Of a stretch of DNA of 35,789 nt, positions 3,547-16,191 are shown piece by piece (position 1 is the stretch's first letter; each line of letters starts with the position of its first letter). A model generated the notes under the pieces. That model was not told the origin of the DNA. It worked only from the letters and a program-made list of their open reading frames with translations, and made no database searches. The stretch is taken from positions 1 through 35,789 of the forward strand of contig JAMPGZ010000028.1 of assembly GCA_023663655.1 (NCBI GenBank), given 5' to 3'. This DNA is from Lachnospiraceae bacterium (GTDB lineage: Bacteria > Bacteroidota > Bacteroidia > Bacteroidales > Muribaculaceae). A program made the translations under genes and the position numbers.

Positions 3547-4701
3547 CTATCTTCTGATTTTAATCCTGATAGCTTCCTCAGGCAGATTATCGGTCGAATC
3601 AACCACAAAAACGAGATGTCCGCCACCTCCCGCGCCTGCCATCTTATAGGCGAGACACATCGGCGAATATTTATCGATGCACTCTTTAACACGGTCGTTC
3701 ATCATCGCCGGAAACATCGCTATCTGAGCTTCAAACGAGTCACGGAACGCCGCTGCAAACCGCTCAAGGTCGCACGACATGACAGCATCCCAGCAGCGGT
3801 CGGCAGCCGAGGCAAGAGCCTTCACTTTCTCCTCGTCAATCGACTTACCCTCCACAACCGAATAGCCCTTGGGGCGCGGAAAAGCCGGCACAACACACAG
3901 ATGCTCCTCAAGCCACGACAGCACCGCCTCATCATGGCACGACTCGATCTTGAGAGGCCAGTAGCTGTTGTCATAATAATGACGTGTTAGCCCCGACATA
4001 CATATTCCTATCGCATCCTGTGCTCCTGACACGTGCTCGCCCTTCTCCGGCGGATTCTCAAAGCAGAACAGCAGTCTGGCAAGCATCTCCTCATGATAAT
4101 TTGGCAGCTCGTAAGGCCATATCTTTCGGGCGGCGTTGCGGGTGGAGGTCGACATTCCCCCACGCTCCATAAATTCTACCGTGGGTTCGATGCTTATGGT
4201 AAGCGCCCACCCGGGAGCATATTGCGAAACGTAGGGCTGGTCAATCCATGTGCCGGCGAGATCAATACGATACGGGATGGCACACTTCGCCACCGAACGC
4301 AATGACGTGGTGGAACGGGCATCAAGCCCCTCTTCGGGACGGCGCTGAAGCTCCACATACTCTATACCTCGCTTGCGGCAGAACTCACGCTTGACATCCG
4401 AGCCTCCGTCGCTGTTCACCACAAATATATCAGGCTTCACCATATCGACAATCTCCTCGAAGTCGATTTTGCCCGAACCGGTATTTATATAAGCATCCGT
4501 GACATAGCGTATGGCTTTCACCATGTACAACCGCTCGCGTTCGGAATACACCGGCTTGCGGTTCTTCAACTCCATCACAGTGGCATCGGAGCCTATGCCC
4601 ACATAAAGGTCGCCATACTGCGACGCTTCCTTGAAAAACGCCACATGACCGCTATGAAGCATATCGTAGCACCCCGACACAAAAACTCGTTTATTTGCCA
4701 T
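3547..4701 (-). CDS. Fused cytidylyltransferase / GHMP-family kinase
   Basis: 384 residues from the ATG at 4701. An in-frame ATG at 4770 would overlap the upstream pectate lyase gene by 59 nt and add unconserved residues, so MANKRVFVSGCYD is the likely start. Residues 1-140 are a TagD-like nucleotidyltransferase: GCYDMLHSGH carries the HxGH nucleotide motif (16-19), and RSTTS (129-133) matches the second catalytic motif. Residues about 143-384 resemble a GHMP small-molecule kinase of the HddA type: YRIDLAGTWIDQP (motif 1), GGMSTSTRNAA (a degenerate phosphate loop), SGAQDA, and GAGGGGHLVFV (motif 3). The kinase half is short and its second motif departs from the usual GLGSSSA. A plausible role is phosphorylation and CTP activation of a sugar or polyol; the substrate is unknown. 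Last gene of a four-gene operon, 10 nt after the lyase stop. Confidence 0.8.
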   Translation of the reverse strand: MANKRVFVSGCYDMLHSGHVAFFKEASQYGDLYVGIGSDATVMELKNRKPVYSERERLYMVKAIRYVTDAYINTGSGKIDFEEIVDMVKPDIFVVNSDGGSDVKREFCRKRGIEYVELQRRPEEGLDARSTTSLRSVAKCAIPYRIDLAGTWIDQPYVSQYAPGWALTISIEPTVEFMERGGMSTSTRNAARKIWPYELPNYHEEMLARLLFCFENPPEKGEHVSGAQDAIGICMSGLTRHYYDNSYWPLKIESCHDEAVLSWLEEHLCVVPAFPRPKGYSVVEGKSIDEEKVKALASAADRCWDAVMSCDLERFAAAFRDSFEAQIAMFPAMMNDRVKECIDKYSPMCLAYKMAGAGGGGHLVFVVDSTDNLPEEAIRIKIRR

Positions 4702-4711
4702 AACAATCCAT

Positions 4712-6736
4712 TTATTCTGATAGCAAGACAGCAGTCGGTCCATCGCCGCCACCGATGACAGCAGTCGCATCTGTCGGTGTGACAGTAATATAATCTATTC
4801 GGCATCTCATCTTGCCTCCGGTCAAAAAATCTATACGTATCTCATCTCCCTTGTTCAACTTCACTGGAGAAGGCAACTCATGCGTCGTAAGTTCATATAC
4901 ATCTTCCGTTGCCTCCCAGCGGTCCAACATACGGTCATTCACTGAAACCGCGATTGTAGCCGCTCCCTTCTTTTCATTGTAAAAAGCCACACTGATGTTG
5001 CATTCAGTACCGTCAGGTCCATTCCACACTCCGGTTAATGCGCCGGGACCGTCATCGCCCACGCTCACCCGTCCTTCCGATGCCGAGAACCATGAACCAT
5101 CCTCCGTGAATGCAATACCGGAAAGCACCATATTTTCTGCCTCGTTACGACACGGAACAACAAACGACACAGGCGAAGCAAAGCGCCACACGTCGCCCTT
5201 CACCACGCTGCCGTCACTCTTCTCCGCGTCAACGCGCCATGAATAAGCCTTTCCTGAGGCGAGCCTGCCGATAGCAAATTCAGGCTTAGCCGATGTGCCG
5301 GCAAACTTAAGTTCATCATCACCGGATCCCACATACACCTTATAGGCGACAGCGTCAAACGCCGGCACCCACCTCAACGTCAATGGTCGACAAAAACTAT
5401 CGGCACTCACGCTTTCATATAGCCCCACATTCATGTCGCCGTCGGCAGGAAGCGGTTTGGAGGCACGGGCGGGAGCCGTAGCGAAACGATAGAGCGGAGT
5501 CTCACGGCTGCTTCCGTCATTGAACGTAGTTACCGTTTTCCAATAATAGGTGGTCGAAGGCTCAGTCTGATAGTTTCCGCTGAAGCCTTCCGGCATCCTC
5601 TTCAAGTCATCAGCCGATGTGCCTATGTACACCTGTGTTGATTTCACATCTTCAAGCGGACTCCACTTAAGGTCCACCCCTTGCGTCACATCTATAGCAC
5701 CATTGCCGGGATAAAGAATAGCCTCACGCTCTATCCCTGCAATCGGACCTGCGTGCTCGCGGAGCGACACCGGCAGCTCACCGGCAGCGTCCATCACGAA
5801 CCCATACTCGTAATATGCCTCAGGGACAAAATCCGTTCCCGTAAGCCTATGCTTTCCTTTGTCATCAGGAGCTTTACCAAAATAACTGCCCCTGTCGGCA
5901 AGTTCGGCAAAATATGCGTTGGTAGCGTCATCGGAATACATCTGACTGAACGGACGCTTCACCGCTGCGGTGAAATAATTGTTTTCCGACAGCACTTTCG
6001 CACGGCTATGGGCACCTATGCAATACCCCGATATGCTGTCATAGCAATTGTTGAACACGTGCCCTCGTCCGTAGCCCACACGCGGATTGCGCTGTGTGGT
6101 GCTCTCAAACACGTTATGATGATAAGTGACACGCATCTTTCCATTGTCCTCAAAATGCTGCGTGCCGCTGTTGCATATCGACACCTTGTCGTGGTCATGA
6201 AATCTGTTATAGGAAGCCGTCAGATAGTTGCTGCCTATCGTGAAGTCAAGAAGTCCGTCCCAGTCCTCACGCTCATTGTCATGCTCGCTGCCAAGGTCGC
6301 AGTGATCCACCCACACATGATGCGAATCACGGCAAGCGATCGCATCAGGCGAACCGTCGAATATGGTGAGATTACGTATGATTATATTCGACTTGCCATT
6401 TATGTTGAGCCCTATCCCGTAAAGAGTGGCATCTGCTCCGGCTCCTACGATAGTTTTATTGGAACCCACCTCTATGGCATCCTTCTTGCGGTTCACACCG
6501 GTGCCACTGAGCCGCCCCTCGACAACAACCACACGCGGAATATCATCGCCGACAGCCTTTTCAAACGATTCTCGATCCTTCACCCTGACAATTTCACCGT
6601 CCATACCTCCGGTAACTCCGCCATCACAGTTCACGAAACCCACGGGTCCGGATGATGCCTGACTATTGGCAAACATGGTTCCAGCACACAATATGCAGGA
6701 CACAGCCAGAGCTATTGCTTTTCTTCTCATCAGCAA
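4712..6736 (-). CDS. Secreted pectate lyase (PL1) with Fn3-like modules
   Basis: 674 residues with a signal peptide (about 1-27). Residues 30-320 are a parallel beta-helix pectate lyase of family PL1: VWVDHCDLG (141-149) and DWDGLLDFTIGSNYLTASYN (158-177) supply calcium-binding acids, and RVTYHHNVFE plus QRNPRVGYGRGHVFNN (215-230) supply the catalytic Arg of the RxP motif (R216). Two Fn3-like repeats follow (about 340-525, each ending in a YYWKTV or AYSWRVD strand), then a C-terminal beta-sandwich that could bind carbohydrate. Members cleave polygalacturonate by beta-elimination. It lies 13 nt after the opine-dehydrogenase-like gene and 10 nt before the cytidylyltransferase, inside an operon of cytosolic enzymes, which is unusual. 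It could trim a surface polymer or act on dietary pectin. Confidence 0.88.
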   Translation of the reverse strand: MLMRRKAIALAVSCILCAGTMFANSQASSGPVGFVNCDGGVTGGMDGEIVRVKDRESFEKAVGDDIPRVVVVEGRLSGTGVNRKKDAIEVGSNKTIVGAGADATLYGIGLNINGKSNIIIRNLTIFDGSPDAIACRDSHHVWVDHCDLGSEHDNEREDWDGLLDFTIGSNYLTASYNRFHDHDKVSICNSGTQHFEDNGKMRVTYHHNVFESTTQRNPRVGYGRGHVFNNCYDSISGYCIGAHSRAKVLSENNYFTAAVKRPFSQMYSDDATNAYFAELADRGSYFGKAPDDKGKHRLTGTDFVPEAYYEYGFVMDAAGELPVSLREHAGPIAGIEREAILYPGNGAIDVTQGVDLKWSPLEDVKSTQVYIGTSADDLKRMPEGFSGNYQTEPSTTYYWKTVTTFNDGSSRETPLYRFATAPARASKPLPADGDMNVGLYESVSADSFCRPLTLRWVPAFDAVAYKVYVGSGDDELKFAGTSAKPEFAIGRLASGKAYSWRVDAEKSDGSVVKGDVWRFASPVSFVVPCRNEAENMVLSGIAFTEDGSWFSASEGRVSVGDDGPGALTGVWNGPDGTECNISVAFYNEKKGAATIAVSVNDRMLDRWEATEDVYELTTHELPSPVKLNKGDEIRIDFLTGGKMRCRIDYITVTPTDATAVIGGGDGPTAVLLSE

Positions 6737-6749
6737 AAATCGGTTTATT

Positions 6750-7859
6750 TTATAATGTTGATATCATTTTCTCCAAAATATCCTTATCCAAGGCACCCAC
6801 GCATCTCACGTCATCGGAATCGGCAATGTTGTGTCCGTCAAGATATTGCTTTCCGGCAACCTCCTGATACCACGTGAGCATACGGTCAATTGTGGGCATA
6901 GCCACGCCTTTCAATTCACCCACCAGCTTTATCATCAGCAAGCCGTAGGTGAAGTCCTCGGTGAAGTAACGCGACTCGAAATCAGGGTAAAAGCACCCCT
7001 GAGCACTCTCTTTCATAGGAGCAAGCAAGCCCTTGAACGCTCCTATCGAACGTATCTTGCGGCTCAACGATGCCGCATCATGCGACTCATAATATTCGAT
7101 GAGCGGAGGAATATCGCCGTCATCAAGCCCCAACTCATGCAGCAACGCCTGAAACTCCCCGTCGGCGGCTATGAGAACCTTGCTGCTGCTGTCGGTCCAC
7201 TCTTCGTAGAATTTAGGTATGCACGGCATAGCTCCCTCATCACGGGAAAACATATCATAAAGGCGCGAAGTGTGCAGTATGGGATTGCTGTTGGTGAGTG
7301 TGGCTTGCAGCGGGTGACGCAATGCCTCCACAGGCGTGACATGAATATCCTCAAGTGCTGAAACAAGCACAGCCTCCTTCTCGGCATCCATTCCCCAGAA
7401 TCCTATGCGCATCACTTTCCGGTAGCCCAACAGCGATGCCGACTCTCCATAACGGTTCACGCGGGCAATGAATGGCGGGCGCTGAAAACCAAACAATGCC
7501 GCATCCACACCAAGTTCCCGCAACGCCATCACAAAGAATCCGGTGCAGCAGAACACACTTCCCACCGCCGCTCCTTCATCCAAAAACGGCTTGATGCGCC
7601 GCAACTCCTCAGCCATTGCTGTCGCAGGAAGGCATATCAGCACAATGCTTGAGCCGGGAATCACATCATCAGGAGAGGAGCTTACACGGTTCAATTTGCC
7701 TTGGTAACATTTTCCGTCCGGATCATTCACCGTAATCGTTCGGCGCCAGCGTTCAGGACTGCGGGTAAGCATATTGACCTCATATCCTCGCGAGGCAGCC
7801 ACCCCGGCGATCACTGTTCCCAGATTACCGCCTCCGCATATACATATTTTTCCTTTCAT
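6750..7859 (-). CDS. Octopine/nopaline-dehydrogenase-family oxidoreductase
   Basis: 369 residues from MKGKICICGGGNLGT; the ATG at 7859 is 10 nt after the upstream stop, whereas a longer frame reaching 7958 would run into the fusion gene. CGGGNLGTVIA is a Rossmann NAD(P) loop at the N-terminus. The C-terminal half carries features of the octopine dehydrogenase family: LTNSNPILHTSRLYD with a catalytic-type His, and RYFTEDFTYGLLMIKLVGEL followed by GVAMPTIDRML. Family members reductively join an amine or amino acid to a 2-keto acid, or reduce related substrates. It follows an aminotransferase fusion in the operon, which would fit chemistry on an amine or keto acid intermediate. The actual substrate cannot be inferred. 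Confidence 0.8.
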   Translation of the reverse strand: MKGKICICGGGNLGTVIAGVAASRGYEVNMLTRSPERWRRTITVNDPDGKCYQGKLNRVSSSPDDVIPGSSIVLICLPATAMAEELRRIKPFLDEGAAVGSVFCCTGFFVMALRELGVDAALFGFQRPPFIARVNRYGESASLLGYRKVMRIGFWGMDAEKEAVLVSALEDIHVTPVEALRHPLQATLTNSNPILHTSRLYDMFSRDEGAMPCIPKFYEEWTDSSSKVLIAADGEFQALLHELGLDDGDIPPLIEYYESHDAASLSRKIRSIGAFKGLLAPMKESAQGCFYPDFESRYFTEDFTYGLLMIKLVGELKGVAMPTIDRMLTWYQEVAGKQYLDGHNIADSDDVRCVGALDKDILEKMISTL

Positions 7860-7869
7860 CACCCCGGCT

Positions 7870-9702
7870 TTATTTCTTGAGTTTTTTGTCATACAGGCTC
7901 CGCATCGCCGACACCAGCTTTTCATTGTCCTCCCGGTCTCTAACCGCGATACGCACATATTGCACTCCTTGCGGAAATCCTTTTTTAGAGGAGCAATCCT
8001 TTATATAGATATTGAAATCGGCAAGAAGCGACAGCGTGAGATCATGAGAAGTAATGCCATCGCAAAGCTCACACAAAAAATAGTTTGCCTGCGACGGGAT
8101 GACTCGCAAGAAAGGCACCGTCGAGAGATTGCGGTAAAATTCATCGCGACCGGCTCGGAATTTCTCACAGGCATTACGGTAATCACCTTCATATTTACCG
8201 AAAATCTGCATATAGAACTCAGCAAAAGAATTGATATTCCATATAGCCACATCCCCGCGCAGCTTCTTGACAAGCTCCGTGTCGGCAGAGGCAAGCACGC
8301 CGAGACGCAAGCCCGGCACTCCATAGGACTTTGATATGCTCTTCATCACGCACATCGTGGGATAAGATTCCAATATGCCATCACACAGCAAGGAATTCTC
8401 TTCGGCTCCGGTGCTGAAATCCACAAACGATTCATCGACCACGAGCCTTACACCTTTCGCCTCACATTCACCGGCAAGTTTCAGAACCTCCCCTTTGGGA
8501 ATAAAATTCCCCGATGGATTATCGGGATTCACCAAAAGGAGCGTCGATATATCCTTGTCGCCGAAAAAGTCGATCAGATCATCGGCGGTATAGGCAAAAT
8601 TTCGGTTGTCGGGATAGAACTTAACTATATTTTCATCCTTCAGGCGGTTGGGATACTCTTCAAATGTAGGATATACCACACCTAACTTACCCGTCAGATG
8701 CTCCATCAACGCCTTTATAAGCTCGGCGGCGCCGTTGCCCACACAGGCATATTCCTGCCGTATGCCGAAATATTTTCCTGCGAGCAGAGAATTCACACCC
8801 ATTCCCGACGGATATTCACGCAGCAATACGTCGAAATTAGCTTTCATCTCGTCATTAAGACGCTTGCTCGGGAAATAAGGATTCACCAAATAGCAGAAAT
8901 CAAGCAATCCCGGATAGCGCCAATAACCGCCGTAACTGTGCTGTATCTTTTCAAGACGTTCCGATGGCGAAGCAAACATAGCCTCAGCTATACGCAGATC
9001 CTGCACATCATCGATCTCATACCATTTCATACCCGATACCGGAAGAGCTTTAAGACCGGCACGGTCAATAAGCGTGATCACTCGCAACACCTGTTCATAA
9101 TATTCATTATTGCCGAGCACGCTCAGATATGCGTCAAGAAACGGCAGATAATGATTCACGATGAAGTCACGGCTGAACTTATAGACATTGACCGTCTTGT
9201 AATAGAAGCGCGTATCGGCATAATTGAATGCCTTTTTCGAGATGAAGTTCACGATATTGTTGTCATCGTCGATTGTCACCATCGTGCCGTCATTCCACGA
9301 CTCATATTTCGACACAAGCGCAAGCGTGGGATAATCACTGTCGATCGCAGCGGCAAGAATACCGTCTTCAAATATCAGGTCACTTTCAAGCAACAACGTG
9401 TCCTCCTCTTTCAGGTAGTCACGGGCAAGCCACAGCGAATAAATGTTGTTGGTCTTGTCATACACATGATTCTCCACGAAAAGCACACCAAGCTCCGGAT
9501 AGCGCTCAGCCACATAATCCTTCAGCTTCTTGCCTTCATACCCCACAACCATCACAATCCGCGTGAGATCATGTTGCGACAGTTGCCTTAGCATACGGTC
9601 AATGAGTCTTTCTCCATTGACTTCGACCATGCACTTGGTATTATTGGCGGTAAATTCACCGAGTCTCCGCCCCATTCCGGCGGCAAGAATGACTGCTTGC
9701 AT
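7870..9702 (-). CDS. Fused nucleotidyltransferase / class I-II PLP aminotransferase
   Basis: 610 residues. Residues 1-245 are an NTP-transferase of the LicC/PntC type: MQAVILAAGMGRRLGEFT with the GxGxRL loop, then TKCMVEVNGERLIDRML and ESDLIFED (metal-binding Asp). Residues about 265-608 are a fold-type I aminotransferase resembling HisC and CobD: NPDNPSG (392-398), VVDESF (Asp423), SISKSYG (PLP lysine K458) and GLRLG (Arg466). The same domain pairing is known for PntC-AepZ type proteins that make CMP-2-aminoethylphosphonate, but no phosphonopyruvate mutase or decarboxylase is present in this window, so a phosphonate role is not supported here. It is likely to make a CDP- or CMP-activated compound, perhaps an amine. 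First gene of the operon, 36 nt downstream of a promoter box at 9738. Confidence 0.85.
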   Translation of the reverse strand: MQAVILAAGMGRRLGEFTANNTKCMVEVNGERLIDRMLRQLSQHDLTRIVMVVGYEGKKLKDYVAERYPELGVLFVENHVYDKTNNIYSLWLARDYLKEEDTLLLESDLIFEDGILAAAIDSDYPTLALVSKYESWNDGTMVTIDDDNNIVNFISKKAFNYADTRFYYKTVNVYKFSRDFIVNHYLPFLDAYLSVLGNNEYYEQVLRVITLIDRAGLKALPVSGMKWYEIDDVQDLRIAEAMFASPSERLEKIQHSYGGYWRYPGLLDFCYLVNPYFPSKRLNDEMKANFDVLLREYPSGMGVNSLLAGKYFGIRQEYACVGNGAAELIKALMEHLTGKLGVVYPTFEEYPNRLKDENIVKFYPDNRNFAYTADDLIDFFGDKDISTLLLVNPDNPSGNFIPKGEVLKLAGECEAKGVRLVVDESFVDFSTGAEENSLLCDGILESYPTMCVMKSISKSYGVPGLRLGVLASADTELVKKLRGDVAIWNINSFAEFYMQIFGKYEGDYRNACEKFRAGRDEFYRNLSTVPFLRVIPSQANYFLCELCDGITSHDLTLSLLADFNIYIKDCSSKKGFPQGVQYVRIAVRDREDNEKLVSAMRSLYDKKLKK

Positions 9703-9737
9703 ATCTGTGGTTATCGTTTAGAGGTTGTTTAATCTCA

Positions 9738-9770
9738 CAAAGATACGAATAAGTCAAGAGCAAAGCCAAA
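9738..9770 (-). promoter_or_regulatory. Promoter of the 3.5-9.7 kb operon
   Basis: The minus strand reads TTTG (9767-9770), 21 nt, then TATCTTTG (9738-9745), a full match to TAnnTTTG, 36 nt upstream of the fusion gene start. The -33 region lies inside an arm of the hairpin of the first 74-bp repeat, so structure or protein binding there could affect promoter use. Confidence 0.65.
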
Positions 9771-9885
9771 TTTATTTGGACTTTGCCGAGCGTGAGTATC
9801 TAAGACAAAGTCAAAGATACGAATAAGTCGAGAGCAAACGAAAATTTATTTTCAGTTTGCCGAGCCAAAGCATCTTCGACGAAGT
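9738..9885. repeat. Two tandem 74-bp repeats, each with a covarying hairpin
   Basis: Copies at 9738-9811 and 9812-9885 align end to end with no gaps. Both begin CAAAGATACGAATAAGTC. Each holds a 27-nt inverted repeat (9760-9786 and 9834-9860) of 6 bp, a bulged A, and 5-6 bp around ATTTAT. All six differences between the two hairpins fall in three base pairs and keep pairing: 9765/9781 G-C becomes C-G, 9766/9779 C-G becomes G-C, 9767/9778 C-G becomes A-T. The beginning of the unit contains the reverse of a TATCTTTG promoter box. A partial relative lies at 3446. Confidence 0.85.
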
Positions 9886-10246
9886 GCCGCAAGGCACGGA
9901 GCCGTCTATATCCCCGGCTGCCGCGAAGCAAAGCCGGGGGAGGGGGCAGAGCAGTGACACGAGTCCCGGACGGGACGAGCCTGTTATTGTATGTCGGCGA
10001 TACGGCATTGACTGGAGGACATCCTCTATGCACACGGCTGCACAACCTTACGCTGCAACTCGGCTTCGCCACAAGATGCGGAAGAATCTCCAGAGAATCC
10101 TATGAAATGTCTTTCAGGCATTGCTTACGCGTAACCGTGGTACAGGAAGCCGCAGGCGACCTGTGCCCGGAAGAGTACACCTCACAAATGCACTCTGCAA
10201 AGAGTGCCCCTGAAACTATACAGCTCCATTCTATAATGCCACATAC
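9886..10246. other. Gene-free stretch with several compact hairpins
   Basis: No convincing gene on either strand; the short open frames here lack recognisable domains and overlap palindromes. Perfect hairpins: GTGCC-GCAA-GGCAC (9884-9897), CCCCGGC/GCCGGGG (9912-9918 with 9933-9939), GTCCCG-GA-CGGGAC (9963-9976), GAGGA-CA-TCCTC (10015-10026) and GCACTCT-GCAA-AGAGTGC (10190-10207). Two have GCAA tetraloops, which favour RNA folding. The stretch lies between the inositol-phosphate synthase terminator and the next operon's promoter. It may be a decayed gene or a composite of small repeat elements. Confidence 0.5.
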
Positions 10247-10283
10247 AAAAAAACGGATGCCTCCCTCTACGGGAAGCATCCGC
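10247..10283 (-). terminator. Terminator of the myo-inositol-phosphate synthase gene
   Basis: CGGATGC (10254-10260) pairs with GCATCCG (10276-10282), extended by an inner TCCC/GGGA. The plus-strand A7 at 10247-10253 gives a U tract on the minus-strand transcript, about 24 nt after the synthase stop codon. Confidence 0.8.
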
Positions 10284-10305
10284 TGGATTTATTCAAGGTA
10301 GTTGA

Positions 10306-11613
10306 TTAGTCGATAAGCTGATCAGCCTTGTAACCACCCATTTCACGAACAGCGTTCTTAAGCATTACATACTGCTCGAAGAGGTTGTTTACAGGCACTT
10401 CGTCCTTGGTGTAGTCGTGCATCGGGCTCTTGAGGAAGAAGCTCAAGAAGCGCTGAGTGCCATACCAGCCACAACGTGCTGCCATGTCGATGAGCAAGCA
10501 CAAGTCAAGGCAAAGAGGTGCTGCAAGGATAGAGTCACGGCAGAGGAAGTTGATCTTGATCTGCATCGGGTAGCCCATCCAGCCGAAGATATCGATGTTG
10601 TCCCATCCTTCCTTGTTGTCATTGCGCGGAGGATAGTAGTTGATACGTACTTTGTGGTAGTAGTCGGTATAAAGATCAGGCTGCTTTTCCGGAACGAGGA
10701 TTGACTCAAGTGTAGAAAGCTTGCTCACCTCCTTGGTACGGAAGTTGGCAGGTTCGTCAAGAACGAGACCGTCACGGTTTCCGAGGATGTTGGTAGAGAA
10801 CCATCCTGCAAGACCGAGGTGACGAACACCGATGATAGGAGCGAAGCCTGACTTAACAAGAGTTTGTCCGGTCTTGAAGTCCTTACCTGCGATAGGCATC
10901 TTGGTCTTTTCTGCAAGTTCCCACATTGCCGGGAAGTCAACGGTAGTGTTGGGGGCACCCATGATGAAAGGAGCGCCTTCAACCAATGCTGCGTAAGCGT
11001 AGCACATTGACGGAGCGATGTGTTCGCGGTCGTCAGCCTTCATTGCTGCTTCAAGATCAGCGAGATTGTAGTGTACCTTCTCGTCTACCGGAACATATAC
11101 TTCAGTAGAAGCTGCCCAGAGAACCACAATACGGTCACAGTTGTGAGCTGCCTTAAAGTCGCGGATATCCTTGCGGAGTTCCTCAACCATTTCCCAACGG
11201 GTCTTGCAATCCTTCACGTTGTCACCTTCAAGACGCTTTGCGTAGTTGTGGTCGAAAGCAGCCTTCATAGGCTTGATAGCCTCAAGCTCATCCTTAACGG
11301 GAAGGATATCCTTCTCCTTAAGAACCTCGCAGTTCATTGCAGATTCAAATGCATTCTGGGGATAAACGTCCCAAGAACCGAATTCAATCTGGTCAAGTGA
11401 TGCAAGAGGAATGATTTGATTATAGTGGAGATACTTTTTGTCTGCGCCTTCGCCCACACGGATTACATCATACTGAGTTGAAGAACCGATAGGTTTAGCA
11501 AGTCCTTTGCGTGCCATAAGCACACCGGTGATAAATGTAGTACTTACAGCGCCAAGTCCTACTACGAGAATACCGAGCTTACCCTCGGCTTTCTTAACTT
11601 CACTTTGATTCAT
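10306..11613 (-). CDS. ino1: myo-Inositol-1-phosphate synthase
   Basis: 435 residues, the usual length for bacterial members. It converts glucose-6-phosphate to myo-inositol-3-phosphate (also called 1L-inositol-1-phosphate) with NAD as cofactor. GILVVGLGAVSTTFITGV near the N-terminus is the NAD-binding loop; VLWAASTEVYVPV, the catalytic GKDFKTGQT, GWDNIDIFGWMG and CLDLCLLIDMAARCGW are conserved family blocks. It lies 235 bp after the HAD gene, in the same direction, with its own candidate promoter and a clear terminator, so it may be transcribed both with and apart from the upstream genes. In Bacteroides thetaiotaomicron a synthase of this family supplies inositol for inositol lipids; the neighbouring CDP-alcohol phosphatidyltransferase suggests the same use here. 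Confidence 0.95.
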   Translation of the reverse strand: MNQSEVKKAEGKLGILVVGLGAVSTTFITGVLMARKGLAKPIGSSTQYDVIRVGEGADKKYLHYNQIIPLASLDQIEFGSWDVYPQNAFESAMNCEVLKEKDILPVKDELEAIKPMKAAFDHNYAKRLEGDNVKDCKTRWEMVEELRKDIRDFKAAHNCDRIVVLWAASTEVYVPVDEKVHYNLADLEAAMKADDREHIAPSMCYAYAALVEGAPFIMGAPNTTVDFPAMWELAEKTKMPIAGKDFKTGQTLVKSGFAPIIGVRHLGLAGWFSTNILGNRDGLVLDEPANFRTKEVSKLSTLESILVPEKQPDLYTDYYHKVRINYYPPRNDNKEGWDNIDIFGWMGYPMQIKINFLCRDSILAAPLCLDLCLLIDMAARCGWYGTQRFLSFFLKSPMHDYTKDEVPVNNLFEQYVMLKNAVREMGGYKADQLID

Positions 11614-11707
11614 GATTGTGATGGTTAATTAGTTTTTATTTCCCTTTTTGTTTTTAGTTTCAATGTCTGTTTTGCGATTTTGCCTTAGGTTTAAGGATAA
11701 AATCGTG

Positions 11708-11715
11708 TAAAAGTA
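11708..11715 (-). promoter_or_regulatory. Candidate -7 box for the inositol-phosphate synthase gene
   Basis: The minus strand reads TACTTTTA, one mismatch from TAnnTTTG, about 95 nt upstream of the ATG. No convincing -33 box is seen. It would leave an A-rich leader of roughly 90 nt. Confidence 0.3.
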
Positions 11716-11775
11716 GTGGTTATTTTTGAGATGTAAAAAATTTTTTCAACAAACTTTCCTTATTTAATGTCAAAT

Positions 11776-11810
11776 TTAGCTAAAAATATGCCGTATTAGC
11801 CAAAATATGC
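11776..11810. promoter_or_regulatory. Direct repeat upstream of the synthase gene (possible operator)
   Basis: TTAGCTAAAAATATGC (11776-11791) and TTAGCCAAAATATGC (11796-11810) are near-identical and start 20 bp apart, about two helical turns, placing both on the same face of DNA. They lie about 60 bp upstream of the candidate -7 box. The rest of the 235-bp gap (11614-11848) is AT-rich, and I see no gene in it. Confidence 0.4.
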
Positions 11811-11848
11811 AAAATAAGACCCTATAACCACCTATGTATGTTAACGAA

Positions 11849-12565
11849 TCATAACGCTACCTCAATAAGTTCTGCGAGATTTTTGATGATTGAAGGATGC
11901 ATCACGGCATCTTCCTCATCAGTCCATCCCTTGCCCTTGAGCCAAGCCACCTTACACCCTATGCTCTCGGCTGGAACAATATCCTTTTTATAAGAATCGC
12001 CCACCACAAGCACCTCACCGGGAGCAAGACCGAGAGCCTCAACTCCAAGAGCGAATATCTTGGGATCAGGTTTACGGACACCCACCACGGCGCTCTCTAT
12101 TATCTCTTTGAAGTAGCCGCGCAGATTAAAGTCGGTGAGCACAGCCTCAATGTTGCCATAGAAGTTGCTGACAAGGACCATGGGATAACGTGCCCCAAGT
12201 GCATCAAGCACCGGGCGAGCCTCATCGGCACACGCACGCGCGCAATCATAACAATAGCGTGCTATGGCAGGAGCAAGAGTCTCAACCTCTTCACTCTCCA
12301 CAACACCGAGCTCCACAAGATAACCCAGCTCTATCACCATTTTCTTATACAGCAGGTCATAGAAATTGTCGGTGGGCTGAATGTGAGGGTGACGGGCAAG
12401 TTCACGCTCGGCATACACGTATGCATCGCGAAAAACCTCCTTGCCTATCTTCACTCCTGCATGAATATAACCGTCCCATATTATCTCGCTCCAATGGGTG
12501 CCTCGGCTGTCGATAGTGCCGCCGTAGTCAAATATCACACCCTTTATATCCTTAATAGAGTCCAT
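11849..12565 (-). CDS. HAD-superfamily phosphatase-like hydrolase
   Basis: 238 residues from MDSIKDIKGVIFDYGGTIDS; the ATG at 12565 lies inside the last codons of the upstream gene (14-nt overlap), while a frame extended to 12679 adds an unrelated N-terminus. Motif I is FDYGGT, with the nucleophile Asp but Gly where most phosphatases have the second, acid-base Asp; other HAD lineages also have Gly or Ala there. Motif II is VLVSN, motif III the Lys in GVRKPDPKIF, motif IV VVGDSYKKDI. The helical cap lies between motifs I and II (subfamily IA). In this operon it could dephosphorylate an inositol phosphate, the phosphorylated lipid product or another intermediate. Substrate not determinable. Confidence 0.85.
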   Translation of the reverse strand: MDSIKDIKGVIFDYGGTIDSRGTHWSEIIWDGYIHAGVKIGKEVFRDAYVYAERELARHPHIQPTDNFYDLLYKKMVIELGYLVELGVVESEEVETLAPAIARYCYDCARACADEARPVLDALGARYPMVLVSNFYGNIEAVLTDFNLRGYFKEIIESAVVGVRKPDPKIFALGVEALGLAPGEVLVVGDSYKKDIVPAESIGCKVAWLKGKGWTDEEDAVMHPSIIKNLAELIEVAL

Positions 12566-13493
12566 CCTGCAATTGCTTTGTAAAGTTACGGCAGATACGT
12601 CCATGACGCACCACCATATATATAAGTAGAATGTTAAGCACCGTAAGCTCAAATACGAAATACAACCATGGCATCGCAAGGAACAACGAAGTGAACAATG
12701 CGATAGTGCGCCAGTTGAACGACAGGATATTGGTGTACTTCATAAGCGGTAGGCTCTTCTCGCGGAAAGCGTCACGGAACGATTGCGGAATATTACCGTC
12801 GGGGAAACGCTGTTTAAGTTCGCGGCGGAGCGCTTGCATCCTCGGAGTCCAGTCCTCCTGACTTTCCGTATAGTTGGTGTAAAAGAACAGAGTTATCTTG
12901 CTCCAGAAATTTCCTTTCCAGAGCATTGACGACTGTTTAGCTTTCAACGCCGCTGCCGACTCAAGCTCGCTGCCACCCTCACCTTTCAGGAAATAGAGGT
13001 GGAACTGGCGGTAGTAATCAGCCATTGCCGCCTGCTTGGCATGACACGCTCCGGCACTGACGGCTATAACCCATATTACCCACACATGAGAGGAGAAAAA
13101 CTCGGAAGTGGCATTCTCGCGGAAACAGATGGCGAAATAGATGGTCACAAACCACAAGTCGCCGGCAAGACCGTCGAGTATGCGGCCCAGACGCGAATAC
13201 TGCTTCGTCATGCGGGCAAGCTGACCGTCGGCTGAATCAAAAGAGTTTGCCCACACAAGCAGAAGCATCCCCACCACATTTATCCATAATACAGGATAAT
13301 AGAACAGGATTCCGGCGGCAACGCCAAGGAAAATCGAGGCGATGGTGATGGCATTGGGGGTGACGCCAAGTTTCTTGGCAAGACAAGCCCACATATAACC
13401 TATCTTTCTATAAAACCACAAGTCGATATGCTCCTCGGTGTCCATCGACTTCAATGTGCTCTGCAATGACACATTCTCACTTGACGATGTCAT
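12552..13493 (-). CDS. CDP-alcohol phosphatidyltransferase-family membrane enzyme
   Basis: 313 residues with several membrane segments (about 50-85, 113-130, 137-150, 265-300). The family transfers a phospho-alcohol or phosphatidyl group from a CDP-activated donor. The signature is mostly intact: D86-x2-D89-G-x2-A-R94-x8-G103-x3-D107. The last aspartate, normally three residues after D107, is instead after four (LDGLAGD, D112). A long hydrophilic insert (about 160-255) rich in Lys, Arg and Glu separates the membrane helices. The start overlaps the ATP-grasp stop as ATGA, and the end overlaps the HAD gene by 14 nt, so these genes are translationally coupled. With inositol-phosphate synthase nearby, a phosphatidylinositol-phosphate or CDP-inositol-dependent reaction is likely but unproven. 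Confidence 0.85.
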   Translation of the reverse strand: MTSSSENVSLQSTLKSMDTEEHIDLWFYRKIGYMWACLAKKLGVTPNAITIASIFLGVAAGILFYYPVLWINVVGMLLLVWANSFDSADGQLARMTKQYSRLGRILDGLAGDLWFVTIYFAICFRENATSEFFSSHVWVIWVIAVSAGACHAKQAAMADYYRQFHLYFLKGEGGSELESAAALKAKQSSMLWKGNFWSKITLFFYTNYTESQEDWTPRMQALRRELKQRFPDGNIPQSFRDAFREKSLPLMKYTNILSFNWRTIALFTSLFLAMPWLYFVFELTVLNILLIYMVVRHGRICRNFTKQLQDGLY

Positions 13494-14356
13494 TTCTGAT
13501 GCTCTTTTATAGTGTTAATGATACATTTTGCGATATGAGGCGCCGCTTCCTGACGGCATGGTGCGAAACTCGGCCAGTCATTGAAGTCGATGATGCGAAT
13601 GGAGCCGTCGGCATTCACGATACAGTCACCGCCATACACCTTCACGTCAAGCACCTCGCTCGCAGCCTGACAGATAGCTCTCATGCGCGACTTGTCAAAC
13701 TCGATGCCTTGCGACTTGCCGTTGATAGCCTCATGTCCATACTTGGAGTGACCCGCTTCAAACGGGTAGAACCAGTAGAAGAACGGAGTACCCTGCACAC
13801 CGTAAAACTTGATAAGGTCACCCACAAGGTGACGGTTGATCACAGCTCTCTTTATACCGCGAAGGAAATACTCCTGAAGCACTTCCTGAGCCTCTTCGGG
13901 ATGGCGCACATAGCTCACATCCTCCTTGTGCATGGCATGGAAATCGCCGCGCTTGATCCAGCACTGCGTGTAGCCCGCCTTTTTGAGCTTTCCGGCAACA
14001 GCCTCGTCAGTGTCCACTATCAAGCTCTCGGGGTAAGGAATGTTGCTGCCCACAAGAATGCGCGTCATGCGCTCACGGGTACAGTTCTCGATGCCGTAGC
14101 CAGAGTTTATAACCAACACACCCTCATCCTCCAATTTTTGAAGCAGATGTATCGATTTCATCTCGCGGCACATATTGACAATGATTCTTTCCTTCACCTC
14201 TCCGGCTATGAATTGCTCCTCGCTATAGATGTTCACTATGATTCCGCGCTTGCGGAGCTGGTCGGCGGTCGCATTGAAAATCGCGGCATCGTTGCCGATG
14301 TGGTTGGGAGAATATGCGCCGGCTCTCATTATGCCGGCTATTGTTATTTCTGCCAT
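13490..14356 (-). CDS. ATP-grasp domain enzyme
   Basis: 288 residues from MAEITIAGIMRAG at 14356, 13 nt after the upstream stop; an in-frame ATG at 14434 would overlap that gene. The pattern is that of an ATP-grasp fold: an N-terminal alpha/beta domain; INSGYGIENCTRERMTRIL before the central domain; WIKRGDF with an ATP-binding Lys; RHLVGDLIKFYGV; and IRIIDFNDWPSF with the metal-binding Asp and Asn. Most members are amino acid or peptide ligases (RimK-like), but inositol polyphosphate kinases of the ITPK type share the fold, which is of interest beside an inositol-phosphate synthase. Whether it ligates an amino acid or phosphorylates an inositol compound cannot be told here. Confidence 0.75.
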   Translation of the reverse strand: MAEITIAGIMRAGAYSPNHIGNDAAIFNATADQLRKRGIIVNIYSEEQFIAGEVKERIIVNMCREMKSIHLLQKLEDEGVLVINSGYGIENCTRERMTRILVGSNIPYPESLIVDTDEAVAGKLKKAGYTQCWIKRGDFHAMHKEDVSYVRHPEEAQEVLQEYFLRGIKRAVINRHLVGDLIKFYGVQGTPFFYWFYPFEAGHSKYGHEAINGKSQGIEFDKSRMRAICQAASEVLDVKVYGGDCIVNADGSIRIIDFNDWPSFAPCRQEAAPHIAKCIINTIKEHQK

Positions 14357-14369
14357 TTTTCTATATATG

Positions 14370-15074
14370 TTAATTTTCGCCTGATATGAATTGCTCTGCG
14401 GTAGCAATGTCGCCGGCATGGTCGACATCAACAATCTTGCTGAAAGGGCAAGCCTTGAGATTCAATCCCCCCTCGACAAGCGCCCGTTGATAGTTGCGCA
14501 TACGGCTCACACCTCTCTTCATGCAGTCGTCAAGTATGCCGAGCGCCGGCTGGGTAAGTCCGTAGATGCCACCCGATATATACTTCACCCCTTCGTGCGG
14601 AGTGTCAAGGAATGCGGTGATGCGCATATTATCGTCAACATCGATGTAAAGGGGTTTCTCGTCGTCGATAAAAGAAGTGACAGCCATGCAGCCGTCGGCA
14701 TCGCTCACTTCAAACTCCTCCACATAACGGCGGAAGTCCTCGCGACGGAAAATAGTGTCGACCGTCGTTAGCACAAATTTACCCCGAGCGGGGAAGCTGC
14801 GGCTCACTTCCCAGAACGAGTGCATGGAACTGGGAGTGGACTTGACTACGAGATGAAACGGCACCGGGAGTGTAAGCCCCTCAAGATACTCCCTGACTTC
14901 GGTCATCTGCTCGTTGACAATAATCGACAATGATTCAGGTGAGCATGACATCATTATGTCAATCAAGCGTTTAATCATAGGCACTCCGTTAAGGAGCACC
15001 AGCGGCTTGGGTCTCGCAACGCCCTCCTGTGCAAGGCGCGAACCCTCTCCGGCTGCAATAATGGCGTAATGCAT
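14370..15074 (-). CDS. MobA-like NTP-transferase
   Basis: 234 residues. MHYAIIAAGEGSRL gives the nucleotide-binding GxGxRL loop, RPKPLVLLNGVPMIKR the conserved Lys, and TTVDTIF the metal-binding Asp. The enzyme should attach a nucleotide to a phosphorylated small molecule. In archaeal and thermophile di-myo-inositol-phosphate synthesis a transferase of this class makes CDP-inositol and is fused to a CDP-alcohol phosphatidyltransferase; here both proteins are encoded two genes apart in an operon with an inositol-phosphate synthase, so CTP:inositol-phosphate cytidylyltransferase is a reasonable hypothesis. It lies 16 nt after pdxA. Confidence 0.8.
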   Translation of the reverse strand: MHYAIIAAGEGSRLAQEGVARPKPLVLLNGVPMIKRLIDIMMSCSPESLSIIVNEQMTEVREYLEGLTLPVPFHLVVKSTPSSMHSFWEVSRSFPARGKFVLTTVDTIFRREDFRRYVEEFEVSDADGCMAVTSFIDDEKPLYIDVDDNMRITAFLDTPHEGVKYISGGIYGLTQPALGILDDCMKRGVSRMRNYQRALVEGGLNLKACPFSKIVDVDHAGDIATAEQFISGEN

Positions 15075-15090
15075 TGGTTTTATTTATTAC

Positions 15091-16191
15091 TTAGCTGGCG
15101 CTGTCATCCTTGGTAAGGTCAAGCACCACATTATCTTTTCCTTTTTCAAAATACTGTTTTCTGAGCGGATTGCGGAATGCGTAATCATCATTCCGGCGAT
15201 TGCGGTATATGTCGATGGCAGCATATATAGCCTGACGCATCGACTCGGCAGAAGCCACCCACTTTCCGGCTATGTCGAAGCCGGTGCCATGATCGGGCGA
15301 GGTTCTCACGTAAGGAAGCCCGGCAGTGAAATTAACTCCGTCGTCCATCGACTTAGCCTTGAATGGAGCAAGCCCCTGGTCATGATACATGGCAAGCACT
15401 CCGTCAAACACTTTATATGCCTCCGTGCCGAAAAATCCGTCGGAAGCGTATGGACCGAAAGCAAGGATATTCTTGCTGCGAGCCTTCTCTATTGCCGGAA
15501 CTATCACATCCTTTTCTTCCGAGCCAAGCAATCCGTTTTCTCCCGAGTGAGGATTCAACGACAGCACCGCTATGCGCGGCGAGCTTATGCCGAAATCCCG
15601 GCGCAGCGATGTGCTGAACGCGGTGAGCTTTTCCAGTATTCCATCCATCGTGATGGCTGAGGGAACCTTGGAGATAGGCAGATGAGCTGTGACAAGAGCC
15701 ACTCGCATGGCTGAGCTGCACAGAATCATCAGCGCTTTCTCACCGTCGCCAAGCGAAGCCTCAAGATACTCCGTGTGTCCGGGGAAATGAAATGTCTCGC
15801 TGTGTATGGCATCCTTGTTGATAGGAGCTGTCACAAGAGCGTCAATCTCCCCTGAGCGAAGATCGGCGACCGCACGTTCCAAAGCGACAAACGCCGCTTC
15901 GCCTGAGCTTTTTGAAAGCACTCCCGGCTCTACTTTTGTGTCCTCGGGGACCACATTTATTATGTTCACCTCATTATCTTTCGATTGAGCGGGCGACGCG
16001 ATCTGCGTCATCGGCACTGCCGGCTGGTCAGCGCCTTTCAGATAGTAGGACGCTATTTTAGCCGACCCGTAGATAATCGGGGTGCAGAGTTCGGCGATAC
16101 GGGCATCTTCAACGGCTTTGAGTATCACCTCATATCCGATACCGTTTATATCACCTTGTGTTATACCTATTTTGAGTTTTCTATTATTCAT
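15091..16191 (-). CDS. pdxA: 4-Hydroxythreonine-4-phosphate dehydrogenase
   Basis: 366 residues, slightly longer than the usual 330. PdxA oxidises 4-phosphohydroxy-L-threonine in the DXP-dependent route to pyridoxal phosphate. ITQGDINGIGYEVI at the N-terminus is the family signature; the metal-ligand histidines are visible at H170 (VTAH), H215 (LNPH) and H270 (MYHDQG), and SPDHGTGFDIAGK is the conserved C-terminal block. It is the first gene of a close-packed run (gaps of 16 and 13 nt, then overlaps) leading into the inositol-lipid-type genes, with a promoter-like site at 16213-16244. Its association may be simple co-transcription; the PLP it helps make is also the cofactor of the aminotransferase in the next operon. 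Confidence 0.93.
   Translation of the reverse strand: MNNRKLKIGITQGDINGIGYEVILKAVEDARIAELCTPIIYGSAKIASYYLKGADQPAVPMTQIASPAQSKDNEVNIINVVPEDTKVEPGVLSKSSGEAAFVALERAVADLRSGEIDALVTAPINKDAIHSETFHFPGHTEYLEASLGDGEKALMILCSSAMRVALVTAHLPISKVPSAITMDGILEKLTAFSTSLRRDFGISSPRIAVLSLNPHSGENGLLGSEEKDVIVPAIEKARSKNILAFGPYASDGFFGTEAYKVFDGVLAMYHDQGLAPFKAKSMDDGVNFTAGLPYVRTSPDHGTGFDIAGKWVASAESMRQAIYAAIDIYRNRRNDDYAFRNPLRKQYFEKGKDNVVLDLTKDDSAS

Follow-up and report, generated by a model that had tools for sequence, protein, structure and literature searches.

A putative alternative inositol-lipid gene cluster with a conserved ATP-grasp enzyme, and the cytidylyltransferase unit beside it, in a Muribaculaceae genome

We analyzed a 35,789-nucleotide stretch of DNA (hereafter the window; GenBank assembly GCA_023663655.1, contig JAMPGZ010000028.1) from a bacterium deposited as Lachnospiraceae and placed by GTDB in the family Muribaculaceae of the order Bacteroidales, in which ten genes on the minus strand fall into two units. 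In order of transcription, unit A (16191-10306) encodes the dehydrogenase PdxA, a nucleotidyltransferase (NTPT), an ATP-grasp enzyme, a CDP-alcohol phosphotransferase-like protein (CDPOH), a HAD hydrolase-like protein (HAD) and myo-inositol-phosphate synthase (MIPS), and unit B (9702-3547) encodes g4, a fusion of a cytidylyltransferase with a pyridoxal-phosphate (PLP) domain, followed by the octopine-dehydrogenase-like g3, the pectate-lyase-like g2 and g1, which joins a CTP_transf_like to a GHMP-kinase-like domain (Table 1; internal ATG starts were chosen by eye for the ATP-grasp, HAD, g3, g2 and g1 genes). A first-pass annotation of the same DNA had read these genes as two adjacent operons serving one new head-group pathway. 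Profile matches placed every enzyme type it named on the minus strand, the three nucleotidyltransferase domains being two MobA/NTP_transferase-like and one CTP_transf_like, and the PLP domain being of class I/II; its list had left out PdxA and the pectate-lyase-like gene. The GHMP-kinase call was supported weakly, for one half of g1, by the tail of NCBIfam PRK13412 and by fucokinase and heptose kinase in the Protein Data Bank (PDB), and for the ATP-grasp call we obtained no Pfam match and partial RimK, MptN and LysX matches in NCBIfam, all far below cut-off.

Table 1. Genes and transcription-related features of the two units, with the profile match or pattern behind each assignment (aa, amino acids)
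Feature	Positions	Strand	Basis
PdxA (4-hydroxythreonine-4-phosphate dehydrogenase), first gene of unit A	15091..16191	-	TIGR00557 373.5 bits, cut-off 290.35
NTPT, nucleotidyltransferase	14370..15074	-	PF12804/PF00483
ATP-grasp enzyme, 288 aa	13490..14356	-	ITPK/ligase-type PDB profile matches, fusions in relatives
CDPOH, CDP-alcohol phosphotransferase-like, fourth signature Asp displaced	12552..13493	-	PF01066 50.6 bits, cut-off 22
HAD hydrolase-like protein, motif I DYGGT, start at internal ATG	11849..12565	-	PF00702
Bacteroidales-type promoter match ahead of MIPS	11771..11804	-	TTTG N17-22 TAnnTTTG
MIPS	10306..11613	-	PF07994 329.6 bits, PF01658 102.8 bits
Terminator-like hairpin 3' of MIPS	10252..10284	-	14 pairs, 8 GC, T run
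Bacteroidales-type promoter match 35 bp ahead of g4, unit B start	9738..9770	-	Same TTTG N17-22 TAnnTTTG pattern
g4, cytidylyltransferase-PLP fusion, 610 aa	7870..9702	-	PDB profile matches
g3, octopine-dehydrogenase-like (opine/imine reductase)	6750..7859	-	PF02317 111.9 bits, cut-off 30
g2, pectate-lyase-like protein	4712..6730	-	PF00544 132.1 bits; secretion judged by eye
g1, CTP_transf_like domain + GHMP-kinase-like domain, 384 aa	3547..4701	-	PF01467
Promoter match ahead of gene following g1	3477-3446	-	TTTG N17-22 TAnnTTTG pattern

Unit A resembles a cluster already in the literature. In Heaver et al. (2022), MIPS of B. vulgatus and of many Prevotella is described with genes for an NTP transferase, a CDP-alcohol phosphatidyltransferase and a HAD hydrolase close by, and CDP-inositol is proposed as an intermediate of this alternative inositol lipid cluster (in B. 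vulgatus, BVU_RS13095, BVU_RS13105 and BVU_RS13115; PMC9246714); a passage of a 2023 review treats the alternative route as an in silico prediction whose characterisation is not yet complete (PMC10191378). Compared by gene content and order only, unit A shares with this cluster the NTP transferase, CDP-alcohol transferase, HAD and MIPS genes in one neighbourhood. The first-pass proposal of an inositol-lipid-type cluster with CTP activation, unlike that of B. thetaiotaomicron, therefore stands in kind, but it is not new, having been published as putative in 2022. Both unit A and the B. thetaiotaomicron cluster BT_1522-1526, whose inositol lipids influence capsule, peptide resistance and mouse fitness according to the abstract of the same study (PMC9246714), have MIPS and a CDP-alcohol transferase. 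Unlike BT_1522-1526, however, the window held no PgpA or PAP2-type gene among its 19 open reading frames (ORFs) scanned, and its transferase scored 32 bits against the cut-off of 350 of the BT_1523 model, which sets it apart from BT_1523-type phosphatidylinositol phosphate (PIP) synthases. The genome's only other CDP-OH_P_transf match lies on another contig (C12), and in three relatives the two published cluster kinds are interleaved.

To see how constant this gene set is, we counted its members in six frames at 30 MIPS loci taken from the 127 genomes of the family with MIPS, the window excluded, and found PdxA in 20, NTPT in 20, the ATP-grasp gene in 22, CDPOH in 21 and HAD in 18, in the order PdxA-NTPT-ATPgrasp-CDPOH-HAD-MIPS. 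The ATP-grasp gene was present at all 21 loci with CDPOH and all 20 with NTPT. In one genome of the order (locus L259) NTPT, ATP-grasp and CDPOH form a single reading frame of 820 residues, and in two more (L260 and L261) NTPT is fused to ATP-grasp. These fusions, together with the usual place of the enzyme between NTPT and CDPOH, point to consecutive steps for the three proteins, and the ATP-grasp protein belongs to the unit A pathway. It is also what is new here, as it is missing from the main-text account of the published cluster, which nowhere uses the words ATP-grasp, pyridox, ligase or hydroxythreonine and has kinase only in a reference title (PMC9246714); several literature queries on an ATP-grasp enzyme in the alternative cluster gave mostly unrelated papers and none on this subject. 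In the order, 20 further loci carried NTPT in 20, CDPOH in 19, HAD in 19, MIPS in 17 and PdxA in 5, but these loci were drawn from 33 ATP-grasp matches, with divergent and fused ones favoured, and since they were picked by the ATP-grasp gene they are no test of how often the cluster goes without it. NTPT itself is a predicted CTP:inositol-phosphate cytidylyltransferase; its PDB profile matches were headed by sugar-1-phosphate nucleotidyltransferases, with the CTP-inositol-1-phosphate cytidylyltransferase 2xme at 2.5e-4. PdxA is probably a housekeeping enzyme, because it is the sole PF04166 match in its genome, and we set it aside as a pathway enzyme, as it also scores above the PdxA equivalog cut-off and 15 of the 20 order loci are without it.

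Further genes accompany the cluster in relatives. A protein of 316-338 residues lies between transferase and HAD in L259, L260, L261, L266, L267, L269, L270 and L278, and the L266 copy, the only one scanned, matches LPG_synthase_TM (PF03706), which makes it a candidate flippase or partner for a lipid product. An acyltransferase-like gene lies in or beside the cluster in L214, L217, L227 and L274 (PF19576 in L214, the only one scanned). In L266 (833-3505) the inositol cluster is preceded by a PLP gene of HisC/CobD-like type, by a CDP-alcohol transferase with the canonical signature and by a nucleotidyltransferase that shares 31% identity with the g4 domain, and L267 and L269 show a similar gene order; these genes are possibly an ethanolamine-type head-group module beside the inositol one.

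We then compared the ATP-grasp protein with known enzymes. The window protein gave no Pfam match up to E 1, and a single-sequence AlphaFold2 model (mean predicted local distance difference test score, pLDDT, 38.5) was discarded. When a profile of 22 diverse members was searched against the PDB, the top two matches were inositol-phosphate kinases of the ITPK type, namely the Entamoeba inositol 1,3,4-trisphosphate 5/6-kinase 1z2n (2.7e-8) and plant ITPK4 7pup (3.2e-5), with human ITPK1 at 4.4e-4; a family-only profile gave 1.1e-5 for 1z2n and 0.0068 for the ligase 7drm. Against Pfam, the lowest E-value among the 22 members (2.1e-5) was for the ITPK domain PF05770, found in two of them and not in the window member. 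The motif D257-x-N259-x-x-P262-S263, with D257, P262 and S263 in 22/22 and N259 in 21/22 members, reads D-x-N as in 1z2n (DVNVFPSY) and 7pup (DLNYLPSF), whereas 7drm and 7qyr carry the E-x-N of the RimK type. K183, present in 22/22, aligns with Arg in 7drm and 7qyr, and 1z2n reads VKVFCIG at this place (judged by eye). These motifs favour a kinase, and overall the sequence appears to resemble inositol-phosphate kinases slightly more than ligases. With ITPKs the protein has in common the ATP-grasp signature and the D-x-N-x-x-P-S[YF] motif, here co-located with MIPS; unlike them it has a cytidylyltransferase and a CDP-alcohol transferase as fusion partners or cluster neighbours, and the E-values reach 1e-8 to 1e-4 only. 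As to reach and substrate, ITPKs are reported from archaea (PMC8024741), and a passage on plant ITPK1 states that it phosphorylates Ins3P, the product of MIPS, and Ins1P and that human ITPK1 does likewise (PMC7618535).

Two further enzymes of unit A carry altered active sites. The canonical pattern D..DG..AR..G...D...D was found in none of 40 cluster CDPOH proteins, so that the search signature given in the main text of the earlier study, DX2DGX2AR...GX3DX3D (PMC9246714), matched 0/40 transferases of this type. The last Asp stood one residue later in 34 of them and was Asn in six, and a profile alignment with AF2299 (4o6m) put Gly111 of the window protein at the fourth Asp position. In characterised CDP-alcohol transferases this fourth Asp is the general base. 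By contrast, the pattern was canonical in all the controls, which were three PIP synthases (L205, L214 and L216), the other CDP-alcohol transferase of the window's own genome and three paralogues (L266, L267 and L269); CDPOH passes the PF01066 cut-off yet lacks the four-Asp signature. Similarly, motif I of HAD reads D[YF]GGT instead of DxDGT at 35 of 37 loci, the exceptions being L259, where the regular expression matched further along and the motif itself is DYGAT, and one row with no match. A HAD protein with D[YF]GGT is thus without the usual acid/base Asp. With both residues missing, standard reactions are not to be assumed, and the published scheme makes substrates and reaction types look more certain than they are. 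A role of HAD as phosphoinositol (PI)-dihydroceramide synthase, suggested in the earlier study's main text (PMC9246714), is unlikely for a soluble HAD, and the altered motif I weakens the case for a simple phosphatase. PgpA standing in for HAD, as considered for L205 and L216, was dropped, since L208 and L217 are without either.

Turning to the relation between the units, the claim of two adjacent operons holds as geography. Gaps within units run from -14 to 19 bp, save 235 bp ahead of MIPS, and 603 bp separate the units (starts by eye). In this interval lie the terminator-like hairpin and a match to TTTG-N17..22-TAnnTTTG, which we take to be the Bacteroidales-type promoter consensus; the window holds three such matches, all on the minus strand, against 0.37 expected, and three were reached in 1/100 shuffles. 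MIPS occurs in 127 and g4 in 32 of 149 family genomes, with both in 30 (G144 is listed with g4 and without MIPS, and G139 is missing from the MIPS matches). The two genes share a contig in three of these 30, namely the window's own genome, G030 (~186 kb apart) and G076 (>700 kb), and are adjacent in the window's own only; in the other 27 they lie on separate contigs of draft assemblies, where adjacency across contig ends is possible in some cases. MIPS was not found in 20 family regions (up to 20 kb each) around g4, and among 80 named g4 loci, the best of at least 586 confirmed, it was found in one (three of the 20 family regions repeat a named locus, so that the 100 loci examined include 3 duplicates). 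That locus, L082 (WFMA01000047.1), comes from a sister metagenome-assembled genome (MAG) whose g4 is 85% identical, and its gene order is MIPS-g4-g3-g1. Since the adjacency is found only in the window genome and this sister MAG, the juxtaposition of units A and B is recent and lineage-specific.

Judging from the LicD genes usual at g4 loci, unit B probably makes an amino-alcohol phosphate, N-modified and activated with CDP, that is destined for surface glycans. Against the PDB, whole g4 matched 6oux (1.2e-37), CobD 1lc5 (2.7e-28), the PntC fusion 6pd1 (2.2e-14) and LicC 1jyk (3e-12). Its cytidylyltransferase domain is LicC/PntC-like (6pd1 1e-14, 1jyk 1.2e-13) and its PLP domain CobD-like (1lc5 1.1e-28, and 4.6e-38 for the threonine phosphate decarboxylase-like enzyme 6oux, which we take to be an L-serine-phosphate decarboxylase), with K23, D108 and K458 in 20/20. 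g4 thus shares with the LicC/LicD and PntC pathways, as described in parts of two papers (PMC6697681, PMC10434233), a LicC/PntC-type cytidylyltransferase, a PLP fusion as in 6pd1 and an association with LicD; unlike the PntC fusion, its PLP domain is of class I/II and CobD-like, not class V, and an opine/imine reductase adjoins. Several literature queries on g4-type fusions in Bacteroidales gave mostly unrelated papers and none on such fusions. g3 matched 3c7a at 1.4e-34, and H203, R304 and D309 (376-residue numbering), presumably the functional His/Arg/Asp set of octopine dehydrogenase, were each present in at least 95% of 50 sequences of its family.

The next same-strand gene downstream of g4 at the 80 named loci was octopine-dehydrogenase-like in 37 and of the ornithine cyclodeaminase/mu-crystallin family (PF02423) in 18. 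Six-frame profiles, used for reductases and LicD in place of an ORF-clustering count, found the first family alone at 45 loci, the second alone at 19, both at 2 and neither at 14, so that the two exclude each other (Fisher p 9e-8, indicative only, as the loci come from related genomes and p values overstate their independence). The stricter ORF-clustering count, which missed some genes, gave 38, 19, 2 and 21 (p 2e-5) and LicD at 56 loci, so that the six-frame count makes the reading of unit B stronger. At 50 control loci the octopine-dehydrogenase-like profile matched once. LicD, searched with a profile built from the LicD genes of the same g4 loci, was found at 59/80 named and 13/20 family g4 loci, compared to 0/50 MIPS and g1 control loci (mean lengths 18.0, 19.0 and 16.1 kb, respectively), and Wzx at 39/80 named loci. 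The frequency of LicD points to a surface-glycan tag as the product of unit B. To be set against this are the 21 of 80 named loci that show no LicD within the stretch examined, the score of g4 below the NCBIfam CobD cut-off (TIGR01140, 166 vs 290.55 bits), and the window's own genome (2.9 Mb), which has no other g4 and carries two LicD genes on contig C22 in an apparent capsule locus, neither of them linked to unit B. Near these LicD genes, on the opposite strand (L197, 5608-8063), lie a 445-residue cytidylyltransferase-like gene and a 363-residue aminotransferase-like neighbour (by eye).

Under this scheme, a phospho-amino acid, either serine-phosphate or threonine-phosphate, would be decarboxylated by the PLP domain of g4, and the cytidylyltransferase domain of g4 would make the CDP-amino-alcohol. 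The amine would be N-alkylated by g3 with a 2-oxo acid, as in the chemistry of opines, and a LicD enzyme whose gene lies elsewhere would transfer the group to a glycan. Imines, or related adducts formed from 2-oxo acids, are reduced by both the octopine-dehydrogenase-like and the ornithine-cyclodeaminase-like family, and this suggests that the amine becomes N-carboxyalkylated. N-(1-carboxyethyl)phosphoethanolamine is found in Proteus. A passage on Providencia O-antigens describes N-(1-carboxyethyl) amino acids in them (PMC10609480).

The rest of unit B is a mosaic. g1 matched 3elb (3.5e-14) and fucokinase 9iip (6.3e-5), and at 20 g1 loci from relatives we found an MFS permease family in 11 and an NAD-epimerase family, taken as GDP-fucose-synthase-like, in 7; given these neighbours, g1 is probably an enzyme of sugar salvage or activation. 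As a partner of g4 it was rejected, as both occur in 11 and only one in 21 and 21 of 149 genomes (Fisher p 0.054), and among the g4 loci g1 was found at L082 only. The pectate-lyase gene g2, which would be polysaccharide-active by its family, sits inside unit B with gaps of 10-19 bp and is absent from L082, a difference that reflects a recent insertion or loss.

Together, these observations lead us to read unit A as a putative alternative (CDP-inositol) inositol-lipid pathway and unit B as the source of a surface-glycan tag, the two being independent and merely side by side, a reading to which we give a probability of roughly 55%. Gene content, order, fusions, co-occurrence and motif changes are what was observed, and every substrate and every reaction is proposed from them. 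MIPS would yield inositol 3-phosphate, and NTPT, ATP-grasp and CDPOH would act in consecutive steps by which CTP activates an inositol phosphate and the group is placed on diacylglycerol or dihydroceramide. We propose that the ATP-grasp enzyme is an ITPK-like kinase, in which case unit A would hold a complete Kennedy-type route of kinase, cytidylyltransferase and transferase. In one possible order, a phosphatase, for which HAD is a candidate, would free inositol, the kinase would make a new inositol monophosphate, NTPT would convert it to CDP-inositol, and CDPOH would move phosphoinositol onto the lipid; in the other, the kinase would make an inositol bisphosphate that NTPT and CDPOH put on the lipid before HAD strips the extra phosphate. 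Either order gives the ATP-grasp enzyme a role and predicts the linkage position. As for sphingolipid capacity, contig C3 encodes a TIGR01825-type acyltransferase (379 bits, below the model cut-off of 535), which we take as a candidate serine palmitoyltransferase. The fuller picture, in which Bacteroidales make inositol lipids by a Kennedy pathway that includes an ATP-grasp inositol kinase of its own (one 820-residue protein with its partners in one genome) and a CDP-alcohol transferase with a rebuilt site, plus the opine-type phospho-amino-alcohol glycan tag of unit B, we advance tentatively, with the odds somewhat against it.

Several observations weigh against this reading of unit A besides the altered CDPOH and HAD residues: 8 of the 30 family MIPS loci hold none of PdxA, NTPT, ATP-grasp, CDPOH and HAD, and the ATP-grasp family occurs in just 33 of 247 genomes of the order. 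The same 22-member profile that favoured ITPKs also matched the ligase 7drm at 3.2e-5 and RimK-type ligases from 4.3e-4, over longer continuous stretches that span most of the domain, whereas the 1z2n score is the sum of added weak pieces, so that kinase identity is a lean and not proof. Among the 22 members, Pfam found RimK in 6 (best 0.014) and ATPgrasp_ST in 4 (best 0.015), all weak, and the NCBIfam models rimK_fam and MptN each matched all 22 (best 1.1e-11), although the window protein aligns with rimK_fam over residues 57-128 only (32.5 bits, below the cut-off of 143.4) and with MptN over 69-119 only. The enzyme could accordingly be a RimK/LysX-type carboxylate-amine or -hydroxyl ligase that adds an amino acid and gives an aminoacylated inositol lipid, a serious contender that in our view still falls short of an even chance; it is opposed by the D-x-N motif, by Lys and not Arg at the GDxxK position, by the two ITPKs that head the PDB matches, and by a cluster in which no carboxylate-bearing intermediate is expected. 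Instead of a lipid, unit A might also yield an inositol phosphodiester that is soluble, or decorate the capsule with inositol. Among the curated models nearest to the transferase, archaetidylinositol-phosphate synthase scores best at 44.8 bits and the DIPP-synthase bifunctional protein reaches 27.9 bits, each far short of its cut-off, and a B. thetaiotaomicron MIPS mutant is described as having very little or no capsule inositol, compared to minor amounts in the wild type (PMC9246714, main text). We nevertheless think a non-lipid product improbable, as P. veroralis and B. vulgatus, said there to be without BT-type genes, are reported to make phosphoinositol dihydroceramide (PMC9246714), and several clusters encode the protein of about 330 residues, with LPG_synthase_TM in the copy scanned.

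A similar weighing applies to unit B and to its link with unit A. The PLP domain of g4 might be an aminotransferase, for example one taking dihydroxyacetone phosphate to serinol phosphate, which would yield a different amine tag. HisC-type models do match g4 (117.9 bits), and Campylobacter has related enzymes for serinol phosphate, on which our literature search gave nothing; since CobD and the decarboxylase-like 6oux are the best matches, we consider an aminotransferase plausible but unlikely. Far less credible is the first-pass proposal of a single head-group pathway in which the inositol lipid receives another activated substituent from unit B. In its favour, the units are adjacent on one strand in both the window and L082, and the inositol cluster of three genomes of another family (L266, L267 and L269) follows a canonical CDP-alcohol transferase, accompanied in L266 by a HisC/CobD-like PLP gene and a LicC-like nucleotidyltransferase. 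However, the units are neighbours in 1 of the 30 genomes that have both, which is the rarity in related genomes that the first-pass annotation had itself named as refuting its proposal. Terminator-like and promoter-like sites lie between them, g4 occurs elsewhere with LicD (absent from the control loci) and Wzx and g1 elsewhere with sugar genes, and unit B has no transferase of its own. We therefore set a joint pathway aside as very improbable. Overall, the first-pass gene calls were good and its inositol part was right in kind, though published before as putative, while the joint pathway was left unsupported.

These results suggest that the published chemistry of the cluster is described incompletely, and what merits follow-up is the conserved ATP-grasp enzyme, together with the altered catalytic residues. 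The alternative inositol-lipid route, common in Prevotella and unproven, was drawn, in the main text of its description (PMC9246714), without an enzyme carried by 21/21 transferase-bearing loci of this family. Should the enzyme prove to be a kinase, this would alter the route, the lipid's stereochemistry and the connection with inositol salvage. The kinase would decide which inositol hydroxyl, D1 or D3, bears the lipid; the three-domain fusion offers one protein in which to test this idea. Beyond inositol, two reductase families that replace each other beside one cytidylyltransferase predict N-carboxyalkylated phospho-amino-alcohols on the surface glycans of Bacteroidales.

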